From Sellimonas caecigallum (GTDB lineage: Bacteria > Bacillota > Clostridia > Lachnospirales > Lachnospiraceae), in assembly GCF_019754295.1 (NCBI RefSeq), contig NZ_VIRV01000002.1, forward strand, positions 124,001-188,000: a stretch of DNA of 64,000 nt, read 5' to 3'. Each line of letters begins with the position of its first letter. The first letter of the stretch is position 1. The notes below the pieces were generated by a model. The model was given only the letters and a program-made list of their open reading frames with translations. It was not told the origin of the DNA and ran no database searches. The translations under genes and the position numbers were made by a program. Of this stretch, positions 7,475 to 16,721 are shown piece by piece.

Positions 7475-7518
7475 GATTCGGGGACGTGTTCCGATGCATC
7501 GGAACACGTCCCCGAATC
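7475..7518. repeat. Perfect 44-bp palindrome (terminator or REP-like element)
   Basis: Two 22-base arms meet at GATG|CATC without any loop or mismatch; outer bases are GATTCGGGGACG and CGTCCCCGAATC. A-runs lie to the left and T6 to the right. It separates the flavodiiron gene stop (7546) from the GH112 promoter region, so it could end the flavodiiron transcript. Such a long perfect GC-rich stem is unlike the other terminators here and resembles the GGGGACG-type small palindromic repeats dispersed in some clostridial genomes. Confidence 0.75.
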
Positions 7519-7545: not shown

Positions 7546-10074
7546 CTATTTGATTACATCTTTATACAGCTTGTGTTTTTCCAGTGCTTCTGTCATTTCT
7601 GCCATTCTGCTTGTATCGCCGATGAGGATGACTCCGCACAGTCTGTTGTTGAGGAAGTAATATTTTTGGTATTGTTTTTTCCCGGAATCTTTGAATTCGG
7701 CTGTTTTGTATATGAGATTTGGATTTTTTCCTGTATCTCCGGCCGCAAAGAGTGCGGTGTTCATGCCGTGGAAGCTGAGTGCTGCCGGCACGTGTTCATA
7801 TGTGATATTTTCTCCTGCAGCCTGTGCTCCTGCGGTTTTTCCTTCTTCTACTGCCTGTGGCCAGATAGCGTAATTGATTTCCTGATATTCTGCGCAGTCG
7901 CCGCATGCGTAGATGTCTGTAATATTTGTCTGCATTTTTTCATTGACAATGACAGCCCGGTTAGTCTCAATTCCTGCCGCTTTTGCAAGTGCCGTATTTG
8001 CCCTTACTCCACAGGAAATGATGACCAGCTCTGCCGGGATTACTGTCCCGTCTCCAAGTCTTACTGCCGTAGCCGTTCCATCTCCTTCGATGGCTTCGAT
8101 CTGTACTCCGGTCTGGATCTGAATTCCTTGTGCCTCGCTGATCATTTTCAGCATTTCTCCTGCTTCTTTGTCCAGCTGTCTGCCCATCAGTACCGGGGCC
8201 AATTCGAGAACGGTCACTTCACATTTTGCTTTTTTGAGTTCCCACGCTGCTTCCAGTCCCAGCACTCCGCCTCCGATAACGACGGCGTGTTTCGTATGTT
8301 TGAGACGTTCGGATACTTTTTTCGTATCTTCCAGTCTGCGGATTGCGATTACACCTTCTTGTGCGGCTCCTTCAATTGGAGGGATGAAGCATTCTGCTCC
8401 AAGTGCATAGATCAGTTTTGTATAATGGTACTTGGTTCCATCATCCAGAACAACTTCTTTTGCTTCTGTATCAATTTTGGTTACTTCATGCCCCAGAATC
8501 TGGTATACTCGGTTTTCTTCATACCAGGATGCACTTTCTACCGCAATCTGTTCTTCGTTCAGATCTGCCATAATTGATTTTGTAAGCATCGGCCTGTTGT
8601 ATGTCCGGTACGGCTCATTGGAAATCATGACAATAGTTCCTGTCTTGTCCCTTTCCCGGATCGCCTGCGCCGCGTTATGACCGGCCGCCCCGTTTCCTAA
8701 GATCACATAGAAATGGTTGGTATCGTTGGAGAAATTTGTTTCTTCTGCCTCCACTTCCACAAAGTTTTCTCTTCCGACGCCGCATACCGGGCAGATATCG
8801 ATAGAAGAGTCAAAGATTTCTCCGCACACAAGACATTTCACGAGCTTGCGGCTTCCTGTTGTTTTCTTCGGATTTTCCTTTTCCTGAAGAAGACAGCCAA
8901 AATTAAATCCATAATCGAAGGCATCCTGAAGCTGATTTTCATTGGGTTTAAATCGTACGCGGAATCCTTCTGTCACTTTCATGCGCAGCTGTTTGAGCCG
9001 TGTGATCAGGTGCGGCACAGCCTCGCCGCTCCATCCGTAGCTTCCGAAGGCGCTTGCCAGCTTTCCGCCGTGAGTCCCCGCAAAAATGGATGTTGTCAGA
9101 TCCCAGATCGGTTTTAGTGCTTCGCCTACGATGGTCGGAGATCCGAAGAGAATGCCGTCTGCAAATCCAAGCTCCTCCAGCACCTTTGCCTGATCAGCCT
9201 CTACCATATCATAGGAACGCACATCAATATCTCCGCTTGCACGGATTCCTTCTGCGATCTTCTCAGACAGCATTTTCGTGTATCCATAGGCGCTTACATA
9301 CGGGATGATAACCGTCTTGCGCGGATTTGGATTCACAACCGTGGACCATTCCTCATACGTATTCATGATAAAATCAATTTTATCATCAATTACCGGGCCA
9401 TGTCCCGTGCAGATCATCGTAATGTCAAGAGGTCTTATCTTCTCCAGAGCCTTCAGCATAAACGGCTTAAACGGACCGATGATATTGTCAAAGTAGTATT
9501 TTGTGGCGCGCATATATCCTTCATGATCTGTGACCTTGCTTAAAAGTACATCTTCAAATCCGTAGTGGGAACCGAAAGAATCGCATGTCACGAGGATCTG
9601 CTCTTCCTCGATATACGTATACATCGTATCCGGCCAGTGAAGATTCGGTACAAAGAGGAAACGGAGTGTCTTATCCCCGATCTGCATCCTCATGTTGTCT
9701 TTTGCCGGAATTCCCGTAAAATCTCTGTTGACGATCTCTTTTAGAAATCCCAGGGCGCATCCTGTTCCGATGATCTTCATCCCCGGATTCAGATCCAGAA
9801 GCCGCTCCACGCTTCCCGCATGGTCTGGCTCCGTGTGCTCTACTATCAGATAATCAATCTTTTCAACATCCGTTACTTCTTTTACTTTTTCCAGATATTC
9901 ATCAAACCACTTCTCTTTGGCCGTCTCAAACAAGATGGTCTTGTCCCCTGCTTTCATGACGTAGGAATTGTACGTTGTCCCAAATTCCGTGTACATGATA
10001 ATGTCAAACACACGCAGGTCAGCGTCGACAATTCCAGTCCAGTAAAAATTCTTCCTTAGTTCCAGCGCTTTCAT
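7546..10074 (-). CDS. Flavodiiron protein fused to rubredoxin and NADH:rubredoxin oxidoreductase
   Basis: 842 residues in four modules. Residues 1-240 are a metallo-beta-lactamase-like diiron domain with ligands H80-x-E82-x-D84-H85, H146 and D165. Residues about 250-395 are flavodoxin-like (IIPYVSAYGYTKMLSEKI; GSPTIVGEALKPIWD). A rubredoxin follows (CLVCGEIF...CPVCGVG). The last 370 residues are a two-dinucleotide-fold FAD/NADH oxidoreductase (ILGNGAAGHNAAQAIRERD; VIGGGVLGLEAAWEL; YACGDCAEY). The chain can pass electrons from NAD(P)H through FAD, rubredoxin and FMN to the diiron site, reducing O2 to water or NO to N2O in the cytoplasm. The start at 10074 is set by AGGAGG; an upstream in-frame start lacks one. 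A Fur-type box sits in its leader. Confidence 0.95.
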   Translation of the reverse strand: MKALELRKNFYWTGIVDADLRVFDIIMYTEFGTTYNSYVMKAGDKTILFETAKEKWFDEYLEKVKEVTDVEKIDYLIVEHTEPDHAGSVERLLDLNPGMKIIGTGCALGFLKEIVNRDFTGIPAKDNMRMQIGDKTLRFLFVPNLHWPDTMYTYIEEEQILVTCDSFGSHYGFEDVLLSKVTDHEGYMRATKYYFDNIIGPFKPFMLKALEKIRPLDITMICTGHGPVIDDKIDFIMNTYEEWSTVVNPNPRKTVIIPYVSAYGYTKMLSEKIAEGIRASGDIDVRSYDMVEADQAKVLEELGFADGILFGSPTIVGEALKPIWDLTTSIFAGTHGGKLASAFGSYGWSGEAVPHLITRLKQLRMKVTEGFRVRFKPNENQLQDAFDYGFNFGCLLQEKENPKKTTGSRKLVKCLVCGEIFDSSIDICPVCGVGRENFVEVEAEETNFSNDTNHFYVILGNGAAGHNAAQAIRERDKTGTIVMISNEPYRTYNRPMLTKSIMADLNEEQIAVESASWYEENRVYQILGHEVTKIDTEAKEVVLDDGTKYHYTKLIYALGAECFIPPIEGAAQEGVIAIRRLEDTKKVSERLKHTKHAVVIGGGVLGLEAAWELKKAKCEVTVLELAPVLMGRQLDKEAGEMLKMISEAQGIQIQTGVQIEAIEGDGTATAVRLGDGTVIPAELVIISCGVRANTALAKAAGIETNRAVIVNEKMQTNITDIYACGDCAEYQEINYAIWPQAVEEGKTAGAQAAGENITYEHVPAALSFHGMNTALFAAGDTGKNPNLIYKTAEFKDSGKKQYQKYYFLNNRLCGVILIGDTSRMAEMTEALEKHKLYKDVIK

Positions 10075-10094
10075 ACACGCACCTCCTGTAATTT

Positions 10095-10109
10095 TGATAA
10101 AAATTATCA
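10095..10109. promoter_or_regulatory. Fur/PerR-family operator upstream of the flavodiiron gene
   Basis: TGATAAAAATTATCA (15 bp) fits the 7-1-7 Fur-family box TGATAATNATTATCA with one mismatch. It lies 20 bp behind the gene start and just downstream of a TATAAT -10 box (10127-10122, minus strand), a repressor position. Which Fur-family protein (PerR or Fur) binds cannot be told from sequence. Confidence 0.55.
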
Positions 10110-10154
10110 TTATTGTTTTAAATTATACATTATTTTTTTGGAAAAATCTACTGT

Positions 10155-13100
10155 TTATTCTATCCTGTTTTCTGTTTTTAATTGTCCAAACTCCACTTTT
10201 TCAAACCCCTGTATGGAGATATGCTTTTTATCCGGGTTTGCGTAGACAAACGTCTTGTCCACATTTTCCAGGTAGTTTTGTATTTTATCGTTTGTGGCGC
10301 TTATGATAGCCTGGAATCCAAGTCCCCGGATCAGCGCAATACAGCTTGCAACTTTTTCCGCATCCATTTTGGAAAACGCTTCGTCAAGAACGACAAGACG
10401 CAAAGTGGATGGCCTTCTTACCTTCGTCTTTACATTAACTCGGTAAATCTGGGCAAAACTTGCAAGAAGGGCAATGTAGAGCGGGTTTTGTCCTTCTCCT
10501 CCGGAGTTTTTCCGGATCATTTTCCCAAGTCCGATCTTCTCCCCTTTGACGATCTGCTGCATATCAAAAGACAGATACGTGCGGTAATCCGCATATTTTT
10601 CCATATTCCTTCTCGCTTCCTCAAGTTCTTCCCTTGTTGCGTGTTCCGGTGGAATAAAAATGGAAATCAGTTCGTTCATGAGATCCCCATACTCTTCCTC
10701 GTGTTCCATCGTAAAGAGATCCATCTGATGTTCCATCGTATCTGACAGCTTCATCGGATTGATGTCCAGTGTATCTGACATGAACATATCATAAAATCTG
10801 CCGTCCGCCCCTTTATTTTTTGTGATCACAAACCGATACTTGTCTTTTCCGAAATCCAGTTTGCTGATAATACGGTTCAGCTCTTCCTGATTCTGGTAAG
10901 CCTCCTTGATGGCGCTCCGGATTTTATAGACAAAATCTTCTTTGAAATGCATGATGGCCATTCTGGCCTGCTCGTTTGCAAGGGTTTCATATTCTTCCAG
11001 ATTTCCGCATCTGAGTTTGTCGAGCAGCTGATCGTAATCTGTATTTTCTCTATCCCCCGTGGAAAATGTGCGGTTCGGGTAACGGCGGATATAAGCGCTT
11101 CGCACGTCAATGAGTGCCGTGTATTCTTCCTCTTTTTTTCTCTGAATACCGGAAATCTCACGGTAGCACTGGCTTTTCAGATATTCATAGTTGGTGCTCG
11201 TCCTTCCGGACATAAACTGGGCGTAGGCTTCCTCCCCATCTTTGCTCTTGGAAAGGGTATTCTCTTTTTCGAGAAGTTCTGCGTGGAGAGACAGAAGCAT
11301 TTCCTGATATTTTCGTATACTTTCTTCTTTTGCCCAGATGGCTTTCTCGACAGTTTTTTCCTGCTCCTTCTTTCTTGCCTCTTCCTCCTGAAGTCTGCGC
11401 TTTTCTTCTTCCATACCGGAGAGATTTTGTTCTTTCAGTTGTCTCATCTGTTCCTGAAGCGCTTTCTTTCGTTCTTCTTTCTCGTTGATCCCATGGATGT
11501 CCCGGATCATAGAGAGATATTCTTCCAGCGGACGTTCCAGTTCCGGATTTTTTATCGTTTCGCTGATGGTTTTCAGCTCTTGTGAGAGAGGAATCTGCTG
11601 CTCCTCCAGTTCCATCCGCATCTGTTCCAGTTCTTTCCTGCGTTTTTTCAGGCTTCCCTCTCCAATATATGCCTTCTTTGTGTACTGATCCGGATGGATC
11701 CGTCCAAGGCAGTATCTCTGGTAAACCATACAGTCTGGGGTAATCCCGATCCGGCATGCCTTCAATTCCTCGATGCTCTCACATTTCATGACATTTCCCA
11801 GCAGAAAATTCAAATACTGCTGCACATAGTTTTCTTCCGCCTTTGTCTCCTCCGCAAGGGAACCTTTTCTTATCGGATGTTCTTCTCCCAGAATCTTTCC
11901 CGTATCCAGGACAGATACCCGGCAATACCTCTTCTGATCCATGTTTCCATAAATTTCCATGGCATCCTTTACATATTCCGGCGGGACGACGATAAGCTGT
12001 TTCGTGTTTCCAAGATACCCTTCTATGGCATTGTGCCATCGCTCATCTTTTACGGTAATAAGATCTGCCAGAATCCGTACCGGGATGATCTTCCCTGTCC
12101 GCTTCATAAGTTCATTCCTGATCTCATACCGTGCCTCCTCAAGCTCCCTCGGATACATCTTCTTTCCCTGCCGGATCTGCAAAAGATCTTCGTGGACCTT
12201 CTCCAGGTTTTGTCTGTACTCCCGCATCCTTGCTGAAAGATCCTGTCTTTCTCCTTCCAATTCTTCTTTGAAAACGACAAACCGTTCTTTCAGTTCCAGG
12301 ATCTGTTCTTCCTTATCTTCCCCTTTTTCAAGACAAAGTATCCCTCTGCGAATGGCGTCCGGAGTCCTCTCAAAATCTTTCCACTCTTTCAGCGCATGCA
12401 TGGTCCGCTCCCACTGTTCTTTTCCTGCATAGAGACGTCCCAGCATCTCGTCCAGACTTTCTTCCTCCTTTTTCAGCGCATCGTACCCTGTCCCGGCAAT
12501 CCGTTTTACAACGTCTTCCACCTGTCCGGCGATCTCTTCGATTTCCTGATCCATCCTGCTTTTCTGCTGTCTCAGCTTCTCAGCCTCCTCTTCACAGGAT
12601 GCATTTTTATCCTGATACTCCCGTATCTTCTGCCGGAGTTCCTCAATCTCCAATTTTCCAGCACAGTAGAGCGCCCGCTTTTCCTCCTTGTACGCTTCCT
12701 GGAACGTGCCATACTGTTTCTTGATCTTCTCAAGCTCCCGGATTTCCTCCATCGTCTCCTCGATCTTGTCGCGCATCCTCCCATACTGCATCACGCTTTC
12801 CTGCATATCCTCGATCTCGATCTTCTTCTCCGTGCAGATATATTCTTTCACAAAATCTTCCAGCCGAATATTCATCCGAAATGGAATCGCTCTCCGGAAA
12901 AGCCTTGGAAATTTTTCGATATCCAGCCCTCCCAGATAAATATCATACAGCTGTCTGCGGAACCGCTCGTTGCTTGGACCGCAGTAATACGAATCCGGCC
13001 GGAAGTTTCGGTGCAGGTATTCCCGGACTTCCCCTGTCGTCAGACATCTTGCGTCTCCTCGGTATCCATTCTCGAGAAGTCCCCCTCGGTGCCAGAAGAA

Positions 13101-13505
13101 TAATCTCCCGATTGTGTTGGTAGAAGTCTCTACATCGAAAACGACACCGACGCACTGTTTTTCTTTCGTATCCGTCTCCGTAAGTTCCAGTACGATGGTA
13201 CTGGAAAAATTCTGGTTTCGGAGATACTGGGACTCATTGTTGTCACTGATATTGACCATCCCCCGCAGATATTCGATCAGGCTTCGGTCAGAATCATCGG
13301 ACGCCGCCTTATTGAAAAAGCCCCTCCCATCGGTATTTGCATAGAGAACGATCTGCATGGCGTCGATGACTGTGGATTTCCCGCTTCCGGAATGTCCTGT
13401 AAAAAAATTGATTCCTTCACTGAAAGTCAGAATTTTTTTGTCGATATAATGCCAGTTATTCAGACAAATCCTCGATAGTGCTTTGAATGGCTGCTTCTTC
13501 TCCAC
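10155..13505 (-). CDS. jetC: JetC / MksB-like SMC ATPase of a Wadjet-type system
   Basis: A 1116-residue SMC-like ATPase. The Walker A motif GHSGSGKST (K43) opens the head; long heptad-rich coiled coils fill residues about 230-560 and 650-850 with a hinge-like globular part between; the signature SGGEG (from 1001) and Walker B VVLDE (1038-1042) close the head. This is the MukB/MksB/JetC layout. I place the start at GTG 13505 because AGGAGG lies six bases before it; an ATG at 13523 has no good site. The gene overlaps jetB by 50 bp, so the three genes are translationally coupled. The partner nuclease JetD is absent; the next gene is the flavodiiron protein. Confidence 0.88.
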   Translation of the reverse strand: MEKKQPFKALSRICLNNWHYIDKKILTFSEGINFFTGHSGSGKSTVIDAMQIVLYANTDGRGFFNKAASDDSDRSLIEYLRGMVNISDNNESQYLRNQNFSSTIVLELTETDTKEKQCVGVVFDVETSTNTIGRLFFWHRGGLLENGYRGDARCLTTGEVREYLHRNFRPDSYYCGPSNERFRRQLYDIYLGGLDIEKFPRLFRRAIPFRMNIRLEDFVKEYICTEKKIEIEDMQESVMQYGRMRDKIEETMEEIRELEKIKKQYGTFQEAYKEEKRALYCAGKLEIEELRQKIREYQDKNASCEEEAEKLRQQKSRMDQEIEEIAGQVEDVVKRIAGTGYDALKKEEESLDEMLGRLYAGKEQWERTMHALKEWKDFERTPDAIRRGILCLEKGEDKEEQILELKERFVVFKEELEGERQDLSARMREYRQNLEKVHEDLLQIRQGKKMYPRELEEARYEIRNELMKRTGKIIPVRILADLITVKDERWHNAIEGYLGNTKQLIVVPPEYVKDAMEIYGNMDQKRYCRVSVLDTGKILGEEHPIRKGSLAEETKAEENYVQQYLNFLLGNVMKCESIEELKACRIGITPDCMVYQRYCLGRIHPDQYTKKAYIGEGSLKKRRKELEQMRMELEEQQIPLSQELKTISETIKNPELERPLEEYLSMIRDIHGINEKEERKKALQEQMRQLKEQNLSGMEEEKRRLQEEEARKKEQEKTVEKAIWAKEESIRKYQEMLLSLHAELLEKENTLSKSKDGEEAYAQFMSGRTSTNYEYLKSQCYREISGIQRKKEEEYTALIDVRSAYIRRYPNRTFSTGDRENTDYDQLLDKLRCGNLEEYETLANEQARMAIMHFKEDFVYKIRSAIKEAYQNQEELNRIISKLDFGKDKYRFVITKNKGADGRFYDMFMSDTLDINPMKLSDTMEHQMDLFTMEHEEEYGDLMNELISIFIPPEHATREELEEARRNMEKYADYRTYLSFDMQQIVKGEKIGLGKMIRKNSGGEGQNPLYIALLASFAQIYRVNVKTKVRRPSTLRLVVLDEAFSKMDAEKVASCIALIRGLGFQAIISATNDKIQNYLENVDKTFVYANPDKKHISIQGFEKVEFGQLKTENRIE

Positions 13506-14100
13506 GTTCTTCCTCCTCATCAAATGTTTTCAGTAGTTCCCGTATATCATCCCCCATCAGCACCACATTGACTGACGGATAGATGATCATTCTTGTATCT
13601 TCGTTCAATTCTTCCAGAACGTCCATCGGCTCGATGACCTGATATTTTTTCAGAAATGCGACAGCACGGCGCATCTCCGTCGGGGACGGCATGGACCGGA
13701 GAACATGGAAGCTTCCCGCCCTGGCATTGACCGCTCCGAGAGTCGTGACAATCTGCATACTGCTGGACGCTTCCTCCATCTGTTCGTCGTACAGAAGCTT
13801 CAGCACAAGCATATAGATGGTGGCAAGTCTGGGAAGTTTTTCTCCCCAAAGTGTCTCTCCCTGAATGTAGAGAATTCCCATGTGGACATTCTCTGAAAGC
13901 TCTATCCCTGCGATACCAAAATATTCCTTCAGAAATTCTTTGTGTTTGAGGGCTGTCCGATACTCTTTGCTGTACTGATACCGCTCCGTCTTTTTATCAT
14001 ACTTATGTTCCAAAAGAAACGTCTGCCGGTAAAAAAGCTGAATGATTTCTGTCAAATCTGCCTGTTCCCCTTCCGACAGAAGGTCAAAATATTCTATCAT
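13456..14100 (-). CDS. jetB: JetB / MksE-like kleisin-associated subunit (DUF4194)
   Basis: 214 residues, mostly alpha-helical with winged-helix character, matching the DUF4194 subunit that bridges the kleisin and the SMC heads in Wadjet/MksBEF complexes. Recognisable parts are the N-terminal YRQTFLLEHKYDKKTERYQY region and the central ETLWGEKLPRLATIYMLVLKLLY. The C-terminus is acidic (DEEEERGEE), and the same DNA provides the jetC ribosome-binding site. ATGA overlap with jetA indicates coupled translation. Assigned by family likeness and by operon order A-B-C. Confidence 0.85.
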   Translation of the reverse strand: MIEYFDLLSEGEQADLTEIIQLFYRQTFLLEHKYDKKTERYQYSKEYRTALKHKEFLKEYFGIAGIELSENVHMGILYIQGETLWGEKLPRLATIYMLVLKLLYDEQMEEASSSMQIVTTLGAVNARAGSFHVLRSMPSPTEMRRAVAFLKKYQVIEPMDVLEELNEDTRMIIYPSVNVVLMGDDIRELLKTFDEEEERGEEAAIQSTIEDLSE

Positions 14101-15431
14101 GGTTTCCTCCTTACGATTACCAGCTCCGGATAACGGTAATTCCCGTCTTCCCGGATGCCTTCGTTCTCTGTGATGACTTGGTATTTACTATTCTTTCTTG
14201 TACACAGGTCATATGCCAGGATCAGTTTTTCAAACTCTCCTTCACTCTGGATGGAGACATCCCGAAGATCCATCTTTTCATCTTCCATATGATCCTCTAT
14301 AAACGTCTCGATCTCCTGTTTGGTATACCGCGTCTGAATTCGATTCAAAAGCAGTACATCCTCTCTGGAGAGTTCCTTCTCTTCTTCCTCTTCTCTTGCC
14401 ATCTGGCTTATGAAATCTTTCTTTCCTTTTCTCCTTTTGTACAGAGACTTCTCAGACAGGATGTCAAACTTTGAAAAATTCATCTTCGCGGCGGCCTTTT
14501 TAAGCAGCGGTCCCGTATCGTCCTCCTGCCCAATCCGGTTTAAAACCTTTGCCACAAGTCCTTTCGTGTCGGATTCTCCCCTGAGAAGGTATGTAAGCCG
14601 CATAACGGTAGCCCGCACATATTTGATGTGTTCCTTGTCCATATTGAAAATCCGGTGCTCAATGTCATCAAATCCCCGTTCTATCTGATCCAGGATCTCC
14701 ATCCCCTCCGTTCCGAGAGTTTCGACCCACTCGTCCTCCTCCCTCATCTTCCTGAGAAAGGCCTTGATATCGCTCTTATACAAATAGAAATTGTCGCTTG
14801 TCTTCAGGATATGGTACTTCTTTTTTACAATCTCTTCCACATATCCTTCCAGATGTTCCCTAAGAAGATCTGCGTACGACTGCTGGTTTAAAAGCCGCCC
14901 GAAAAAGCGATCCATGTTGTGAAGCATATCCTGAAGCGCTTTGTTTAGCTTCTTCGTATTCACAAGAGCTGTCCTCAGCATGGCAATACTGTTCCTTTTG
15001 TCATTTTGAAACGAAAACAATGCCGCATACACATTTTGGATATAAATTTCTGTCTCCTCCCCTTCGTCACTGTTCAGACGCTCAAAGGCCTCGATGAAAA
15101 CAGATGCATAATCGGGAATCACAATATTCGTAACCATACTTCCGAAATCTTCCAGTTTCTTCAGCCATTGTGCCCGCAAAAGCCAGGTCAGCACACGAGA
15201 AGCCGTCGTGTCAAAAATTTCCGGCTCCTCGTCCGCCTCCTCCTTTTCAAAATCAATCTTCTTTCCTGCATACATGTCATTTAATATTTCCAGGCAAAGT
15301 TCCCGGCTGAGAAAATAGTTATTATACTGGTACTCGTCATTGATTCTCAGAAGCGCTTCTATGTAGATATCCCGGTTTGGCGACCGGAACAACGTCCAGA
15401 ATGTCTCCGGTATTTCATATATCAATCCCAT
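14097..15431 (-). CDS. jetA: JetA / MksF-like kleisin subunit (DUF5716)
   Basis: 444 residues opening with GLIYEIPETFWTLFRSPNRDIYIEALLRI, the recognisable start of JetA-family kleisins (the run shown is split here into MGLIYEIPETFWTLF and RSPNRDIYIEALL). Helical N-terminal dimerisation region, a middle segment rich in heptads (VNTKKLNKALQDMLHNM) and a winged-helix C-terminus are consistent with MukF/MksF. It is the first gene of the jetABC operon, with AAGGAAGG before its ATG and a good promoter upstream (TTGGCA-17-TATACT). In Wadjet systems JetABC extrude DNA loops and JetD cuts small circular plasmids; here only the motor part is encoded. Confidence 0.85.
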   Translation of the reverse strand: MGLIYEIPETFWTLFRSPNRDIYIEALLRINDEYQYNNYFLSRELCLEILNDMYAGKKIDFEKEEADEEPEIFDTTASRVLTWLLRAQWLKKLEDFGSMVTNIVIPDYASVFIEAFERLNSDEGEETEIYIQNVYAALFSFQNDKRNSIAMLRTALVNTKKLNKALQDMLHNMDRFFGRLLNQQSYADLLREHLEGYVEEIVKKKYHILKTSDNFYLYKSDIKAFLRKMREEDEWVETLGTEGMEILDQIERGFDDIEHRIFNMDKEHIKYVRATVMRLTYLLRGESDTKGLVAKVLNRIGQEDDTGPLLKKAAAKMNFSKFDILSEKSLYKRRKGKKDFISQMAREEEEEKELSREDVLLLNRIQTRYTKQEIETFIEDHMEDEKMDLRDVSIQSEGEFEKLILAYDLCTRKNSKYQVITENEGIREDGNYRYPELVIVRRKP

Positions 15432-15468: not shown

Positions 15469-15539
15469 AGTATACCACATAAAATTCCCCCTGCCAAAGC
15501 AGCTTCCTCTTGACCTCTATTTTCCGAATATTATATAAT
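15469..15539. promoter_or_regulatory. Divergent promoters of jetABC and the zinc-ribbon/kinase pair
   Basis: Minus strand: TTGGCA (15497-15492), 17 bp, TATACT (15474-15469) with an upstream TG, driving jetA. Plus strand: TTGACC (15510-15515), 18 bp, TATAAT (15534-15539), driving the gene at 15586. The two -35 boxes are only 12 bp apart, so both directions may be controlled together. Confidence 0.65.
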
Positions 15540-15585: not shown

Positions 15586-15993
15586 ATGTTCAATTTCTTT
15601 TCGCATTCCAGCAGCAGCGGACGCAAACCAAATCCAAATCAAGCTGTTGATTTCTTTCAAAACGGAGGACTGTTCGGTGTGTTCCGAGGCTCCTCCAGTT
15701 CTGACCGTCGCCGCAGAAAGGGGCAGTATCAGAGAGGATACCATCCAAATATCCCACCGCAGGTAGGCTATCCGAACGTGCCTCCTCAGCAAGGCTACCC
15801 TCAGAATATGCAGCAGCCGAATTCAGCATCTTCCGCCGTCTGTCCGAAGTGCGGCGCTTCTGTCCCGGCAGGCTCCAAATTCTGTCTGTCCTGCGGGGCC
15901 CCGATCAACACTGCGGCCTTCTGTCAAAACTGCGGCAAACCGCTTCCGCCTAACGCAAAATTCTGCCCTGAGTGCGGTACGCCAAGACGGTAA
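15586..15993 (+). CDS. Double zinc-ribbon protein with Pro/Gln/Tyr-rich linker
   Basis: 135 residues. The N-terminal half is basic and low-complexity, with repeated PxxGYPN/PQQGYP units that resemble disordered linkers. The C-terminal half holds two zinc ribbons: CPKC...CLSC and CQNC...CPEC. AAAGGAGG precedes the ATG. The stop codon overlaps the start of the kinase gene (TAATG), so the two proteins are made in a coupled fashion and may work together. Zinc ribbons of this kind often pair with kinases or membrane domains as adaptor or sensor parts; the exact role is unknown. Confidence 0.85.
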   Translation: MFNFFSHSSSSGRKPNPNQAVDFFQNGGLFGVFRGSSSSDRRRRKGQYQRGYHPNIPPQVGYPNVPPQQGYPQNMQQPNSASSAVCPKCGASVPAGSKFCLSCGAPINTAAFCQNCGKPLPPNAKFCPECGTPRR

Positions 15994-16721
15994 TGTGGTT
16001 TCGTCATGATCCGGCCGGATACCACATCCTTTCCCGGCTTGGAGGAGGACGGTACGGCGTCTGTTATCTGGCAGAAAACACAGAGGGACAGCAGTTTGTC
16101 CTGAAACGCTTCCGCCCCCGTCAGCAAAAAAAGTATCCGGATGACCATCGGCATGAGGCCGTGATCCTGTCCGGTCTTTCTCACCCTGCGGTTCCTGCCT
16201 TGTGCGGAATCATCAACAGCCCCAGCGGATATTTCTTTGTTCTGGAATACAAAAAGGGAAAGACACTGAAACACTGGCTTTTCAGGGACCACAAGGTGTT
16301 TTCAGACTCTGAAATCTTCCGGATCGGCTCCCAGCTTTTCGATATCCTGATCTATATTCACAGCCGAAGCGTCGTGCACCGTGATATCAGCATCGCCAAT
16401 ATCACGGATGACGGCGAACATATCAGTCTGCTGGATTTCGGGCTGGCGCGCTACACAGATCGTGACGGAGGTATTCTCCCTTCCTTGGACTTCCCATATG
16501 TTGGGAATGTGCTTTTGTATCTTCTGTGTTCAGGGTACAAGGGGGATCGAAAAAAACCATGGCACGAAGTGCTGCCGCTCACGTCTGCGCAGAAACACTG
16601 TCTTTTGCACATGGTGGAACTGGAAGAGCCTTTTCACGATACTAAAGAAGCAGCAGAGGCATTCCACTCCTCCTTTTTTCCGCACGAAGGCAATTTTCCA
16701 AAAGAACATTTTCTTTTCTGA
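15993..16721 (+). CDS. Small serine/threonine protein kinase-like protein
   Basis: 242 residues from the TAATG-coupled start. All key kinase residues are present: glycine loop LGGGRYGVCYLAE, Lys38, Glu55, catalytic H129-R130-D131 with Asn136, and D148-F149-G150. The part after DFG is short and lacks a normal APE segment, so this is a compact kinase fold made almost only of the catalytic core. There is no membrane segment or sensor domain; the zinc-ribbon protein may supply targeting. It probably phosphorylates Ser/Thr of unknown partners. An alternative start seven codons upstream (15972) exists but lacks the coupling. Confidence 0.85.
   Translation: MWFRHDPAGYHILSRLGGGRYGVCYLAENTEGQQFVLKRFRPRQQKKYPDDHRHEAVILSGLSHPAVPALCGIINSPSGYFFVLEYKKGKTLKHWLFRDHKVFSDSEIFRIGSQLFDILIYIHSRSVVHRDISIANITDDGEHISLLDFGLARYTDRDGGILPSLDFPYVGNVLLYLLCSGYKGDRKKPWHEVLPLTSAQKHCLLHMVELEEPFHDTKEAAEAFHSSFFPHEGNFPKEHFLF

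Follow-up and report, generated by a model that had tools for sequence, protein, structure and literature searches.

The window, a 64,000-nucleotide stretch of the Sellimonas caecigallum genome, carries on its reverse strand an operon of three intact, overlapping genes, jetABC (15431..10155, -). The first, jetA (14097-15431, -), encodes a 444-aa protein that corresponds to the kleisin subunit of type I Wadjet and is MksF-like. It is followed, with a 4-bp overlap, by jetB (13456-14100, -), whose 214-aa product is an MksE-like KITE subunit, and then by jetC (10155-13523, -), which encodes an MksB-like SMC ATPase of 1122 aa when read from a TTG codon. Translation of jetC would begin at this TTG (13523) or at a nearby downstream start, and the overlap with jetB (up to 68 bp) depends on that choice. 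An earlier note on this DNA had described three intact subunits coupled by overlaps; the description holds, with coordinates that are exact and Pfam and PADLOC scores that are very high.

Several lines of evidence identify the subunits. JetA matches Pfam PF18982 (430 bits), JetB also matches DUF4194, and the PADLOC type I models score 701 (JetA1), 350 (JetB1) and 1541 bits (JetC1). JetC retains an intact SMC hinge (Pfam) together with its Walker A (GHSGSGKST), signature (SGGE) and Walker B motifs, the last with the catalytic Glu (LDEAF), and these ATPase motifs are invariant across 19 members of the clade. Single sequences found no match in the PDB and profiles were needed: the JetC profile matches the solved JetC 8as8 at 8e-56. 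The predicted structure of JetB (pLDDT 84) most resembles JetB of P. aeruginosa PA14 and E. coli, then MukE, and matches structures 8dk1/8as8; the AlphaFold model of JetA is modest (pLDDT 72), with Wadjet-II JetA and MukF as its best structural matches. The IFDR motif of JetB contacts JetD (PMC10586767); in mapping this motif from E. coli JetB onto the window's protein, the aligned part of the E. coli protein starts about 30 residues further in. With a kleisin JetA, a KITE JetB and an SMC ATPase JetC in one operon, the locus is, judging from its predicted products, a complete type I Wadjet SMC core. Identity as Lamassu (LmuABC) was considered and rejected: the LmuB model scores 42 bits against 1541 for JetC1, and no LmuA occurs among the neighbouring proteins scanned.

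Upstream of jetA lies a candidate sigma-70-type promoter for the operon (15469..15497, -; TTGGCA-17-TATACT), recognised by its consensus match alone (10/12). Divergent from jetA, at 15586-16721 (+), are genes for a protein with a double zinc ribbon and for a short protein (249 aa) that resembles Ser/Thr kinases; neither product has a homologue encoded close to any other jetA in the loci examined.

The junction downstream of jetC

Where jetD would be expected, the jetC stop is separated from the likely start of the next gene by 80 bp (10074..10154, -), which is too short for jetD. The next gene (7546-10110, -) had been called a flavodiiron protein and proves to encode a flavodiiron-rubredoxin-NADH:rubredoxin reductase fusion of 854 aa in one chain, a neighbour that lies outside the jet system. 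Its likelier start, by comparison with sister species, is 10074, and its orthologue in a sister species without jetABC is 87% identical. The suggestion that it has its own promoter is also supported: the junction aligns with its equivalent in two sister species that have no jetABC and carries the gene's conserved promoter region, which a consensus scan by itself detects weakly. Downstream of the fusion gene, a 40-bp element (7477-7516) matches its counterpart in a sister genome and a second site there, on both strands, as one would expect if it were a palindromic repeat or terminator.

JetA and jetABC are missing from both sister species in the genus, which makes the operon an accessory one in this lineage, as is typical of defence genes. 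In both, other cargo occupies the interval from TrmH to the flavodiiron gene, which places jetABC in a variable slot; the TrmH-flavodiiron interval thus reads as a variable insertion site in which the window's jetABC ends just before its neighbour's promoter. The sister cargo (L205 9117-11788; L206 1703-5182), as identified by reading the sequences, includes Fic-like, acetyltransferase-like and short-chain dehydrogenase genes. Carriage of JetABC by plasmids or phages was limited to three plasmids and a single contig labelled as phage, each of them distant (25-31% identity).

Absence of JetD in the genome and its loss across the clade

JetD, the Toprim nuclease of type I Wadjet, is absent both from the operon and from the genome. 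In the assembly, which is 99.7% complete in 53 contigs, neither Pfam PF09983 (JetD_C) nor a profile built from four clade JetDs of the first survey (at E<=10) finds a match, and PF09983 detects JetD in 5/5 JetD-bearing relatives used as a positive control. A tblastn search of the window for a JetD remnant returned a single match inside jetC, an artefact of a query ORF over-extended into jetC; among the regions downstream of jetC in relatives the same approach gave one true remnant (L175), and two short matches, including the one in the window, were artefacts. The operon is therefore jetABC without an adjoining JetD, as the note had proposed, with no room after jetC and no remnant.

Is this a peculiarity of one genome? 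A family survey of 200 members, nearly all from different genera, found JetA in 56; operons from the survey were examined for gene order and a tree was built from 55 JetABC sets. In the clade that contains the window, JetD is missing near jetC in 15/19, compared with 6/36 of the other JetABC (Fisher p=2e-5). A further 80 named loci divided into 58 that lack JetD, 21 with a match to it, which in L175 is no more than a truncated gene, and 1 cut by a contig end. Joined in one tree, the clade amounts to 88 distinct loci, mostly from Lachnospiraceae, with an intact JetD near jetC in 22 (counting L070, where it lies about 7 kb from jetC) and without one in 66. The window operon sits on a long branch of its own. 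When 29 JetD-less genomes were searched with PF09983, 20 had no match, 5 had weak matches only and 4 had a strong JetD elsewhere, which in one of those 4, Hungatella hathewayi DSM 13479, belongs to a second JetABCD copy.

The JetDs that the clade retains keep their catalytic motifs and are monophyletic, with low node support (0.375), and their distances track those of JetABC (Mantel r=0.71; the highest of 2000 permutations reached 0.34). Since these JetDs make up a single group whose divergence parallels that of JetABC, JetD was ancestral and has been lost repeatedly. On the FastTree topology, Fitch parsimony counts 18 changes and Dollo parsimony, with JetD ancestral, 30 losses, both to be read as estimates. 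In 300 label shuffles the mean was 24.4 and the lowest value matched the Fitch count, so that loss is structured along the tree only weakly.

Loss in place can be seen in four conserved gene neighbourhoods. Beside uvrA, one locus (L063) keeps JetABCD-uvrA and about a dozen Hungatella and Lacrimispora loci read JetABC-uvrA. In Mediterraneibacter relatives, jetC is followed by genes for a YfcE-type phosphoesterase and then an NYN/OST-HTH-like protein: L117 has JetABC-JetD-yfcE-NYN with an interval, and six relatives (L119, L120, L125, L127, L129 and L133) have JetABC-yfcE-NYN, and in three of these jetC and yfcE overlap by 4 bp. Claveliimonas bilis, in a complete genome, lacks jetD, which is present in two relatives whose flanks are the same; these three belong to the closest relatives of the window in the tree. 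Beside the citrate synthase gene of Enterocloster, G238 has JetABCD and jetD is gone from G236, G241 and G245. The comparison of G237 with G238 resolves a single event: a 6.1-kb segment holding jetABC is 99.7% identical, and jetD of G237 has an in-frame 837-bp deletion that removes codons 14-292 exactly. The remnant itself (L217, 7983-8324) is a 113-aa frame that keeps the DxD motif. JetD is thus shown to have been lost repeatedly in the clade, in place, by clean deletions. The comparison of synteny that the note had proposed as a check for its single case leads further, to loss in place repeated clade-wide.

Selection on JetABC and its possible roles without JetD

Median dN/dS for JetD-less pairs is 0.051 (JetA), 0.066 (JetB) and 0.060 (JetC), and for JetD-bearing pairs 0.054, 0.040 and 0.056; species recur among the pairs, which therefore lack independence, and the ratios are rough owing to synonymous saturation. 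JetB alone leans toward a higher ratio without JetD (p=0.07). JetABC is under the same purifying selection with and without JetD, as computed in relatives of the window's species. No convincing sites of relaxation after JetD loss were found in JetABC, and hence no positive signature of a new role.

These results bear on the idea that the operon is a decaying remnant, with JetD recently lost and JetABC drifting toward loss. Truncated jetD genes in two relatives (L175, L217), the lack of the operon in the sister species and one MAG (L219) in which jetC lies in two reading frames would all suit such decay. However, the JetABC frames are open in nearly all of the 66 JetD-less loci. A neutral remnant would not keep three large genes open, at dN/dS of about 0.05, through many speciations, and JetABC therefore very likely does something without JetD; decay is an improbable account.

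On balance we lean toward a Wadjet complex that persists after losing its nuclease, as an SMC complex like MksBEF whose probable target is the chromosome. Loss of the Toprim nuclease from an ancestor with all four JetABCD genes would leave the JetABC core, which would still load on DNA, extrude loops in cycles of ATP hydrolysis and release the DNA uncut. Its work may be that of an MksBEF-type accessory condensin on the chromosome of the host, alongside the canonical SMC; JetD would then be an add-on effector, and the motor would have, or would have gained, a benefit independent of it. The genome is consistent with this picture: a Muk-like SMC, a kleisin and a KITE occur without a nuclease subunit, the ATPase is intact, purifying selection acts (in relatives) where the nuclease is missing, and a canonical SMC is encoded elsewhere (1093 bits). 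Also elsewhere in the genome (G000:C1:515155-516462) is a 1235-aa open frame with weak coiled-coil similarity to SMC. Among nuclease-free relatives the role known best is that of MksBEF in P. aeruginosa, in organising and segregating the chromosome (PMC7485682). On the other side, MksBEFG of C. glutamicum, in which the nuclease is retained, has no chromosome-organising role (PMC7083940), and the accessory, patchy distribution of JetABC also counts against a chromosomal role and would fit a nuclease-free defence as well. Among the three readings that the note had offered, the MksBEF-like organiser is the best supported, as strong purifying selection still maintains JetABC in many lineages without JetD; its chromosomal part is the more conjectural.

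Another of those readings, a new defence variant, may hold in one form. JetABC could sense small circular DNA by extruding it totally into loops and then restrain it by compaction, silencing or mis-segregation, much as eukaryotic Smc5/6 does. Plasmid recognition resides in JetABC (PMC10586767), the motor is intact and under selection, and the distribution is patchy and accessory. Yet the block to plasmid transformation in B. subtilis required all four Jet genes (PMC10586767). Among the genes that follow jetC in JetD-less relatives, moreover, no replacement effector is conserved. The yfcE-NYN pair was considered and rejected for this part, as of the JetD-bearing loci L117 has both genes downstream and L142 has yfcE; the NYN gene is also found in one genome that has no JetA, and the pair probably reflects local synteny. 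Nuclease-free defence is, on this evidence, unlikely, if less so than decay.

The remaining reading, that JetD or another nuclease acts in trans, draws on the 4/29 JetD-less relatives with a strong JetD elsewhere (at least one of them, L099, in a second JetABCD copy) and on the surfaces of JetABC, where constraint shows no drop once JetD is gone. For JetD itself it is already refuted in this assembly, where two profiles find none, and it is contradicted in 20/29 JetD-less relatives. The same counts answer the objection that the note had raised against itself, a jetD located elsewhere and always present with jetABC. An in-trans nuclease accordingly ranks marginally below decay, as a rather poor prospect. 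Least credible is mobility of jetABC as a three-gene unit, some copies of which gained JetD: the variable slot and an end at the neighbour's promoter would suit it, but the clade JetDs are monophyletic and co-diverged with JetABC, and the syntenic blocks and the in-frame deletion mark losses, so that for the clade a gain is already disfavoured; the scenario is very improbable overall, if less plainly so for the window's own acquisition.

Returning to the nuclease-free condensin, a broader and more tentative proposal is that in gut Lachnospiraceae deletion of jetD repeatedly converts Wadjet systems into nuclease-free chromosomal condensins, leaving a live Wadjet-to-MksBEF series in which jetD is intact, deleted in frame or gone; this could be so, but we hold it with less confidence than the condensin reading itself. 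An origin of MukBEF and MksBEF from Wadjet has been put forward as a speculation in a 2023 review (PMC10586767). If the proposal is true, the conversion series is the Wadjet-to-MksBEF transition, until now a matter of speculation only. In a search of open-licence papers, no report turned up in which JetD was lost in place time and again while JetABC stayed under selection. Here the nuclease was lost and the motor kept many times within one clade, in cultured species and at the resolution of single deletions, which makes testable the role of a Wadjet motor once it is unable to cut. To call a JetD-less jetABC a Wadjet defence, or dead, is probably wrong either way.

Comparison with known systems

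Type I Wadjet (JetABCD) is exemplified by the systems of E. coli GF4-3 and P. aeruginosa PA14, by MksBEFG of C. glutamicum and by EptABCD of M. smegmatis. The window shares with them the order and families of JetA, JetB and JetC, the matches to the PADLOC type I models and those to 8as8/8dk1; it differs in having no JetD, the defining nuclease, in operon or genome. A jetABC without jetD is already known from Stenotrophomonas maltophilia, as described in one report (PMC11680222): that Wadjet I, in another phylum, is conserved with more than 95% protein identity across strains, and the authors' verdict is that it is probably inactive. The passages concerned contain no analysis of selection or of loss history.

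The window also has likenesses to the Muk and Mks complexes. The modelled folds suggest that JetB is related to MukE and JetA to MukF. However, MukBEF is confined to enterobacteria and their relatives, where it replaced Smc-ScpAB (PMC10586767), and the window's genome keeps its canonical SMC. Closer in composition is MksBEF of P. aeruginosa PAO1, an SMC-kleisin-KITE complex that is discussed without a nuclease subunit and occurs beside a canonical SMC (PMC7485682). Its reported role is in chromosome organisation and segregation (PMC7485682), and it is by this description that the window's complex is likened to it.
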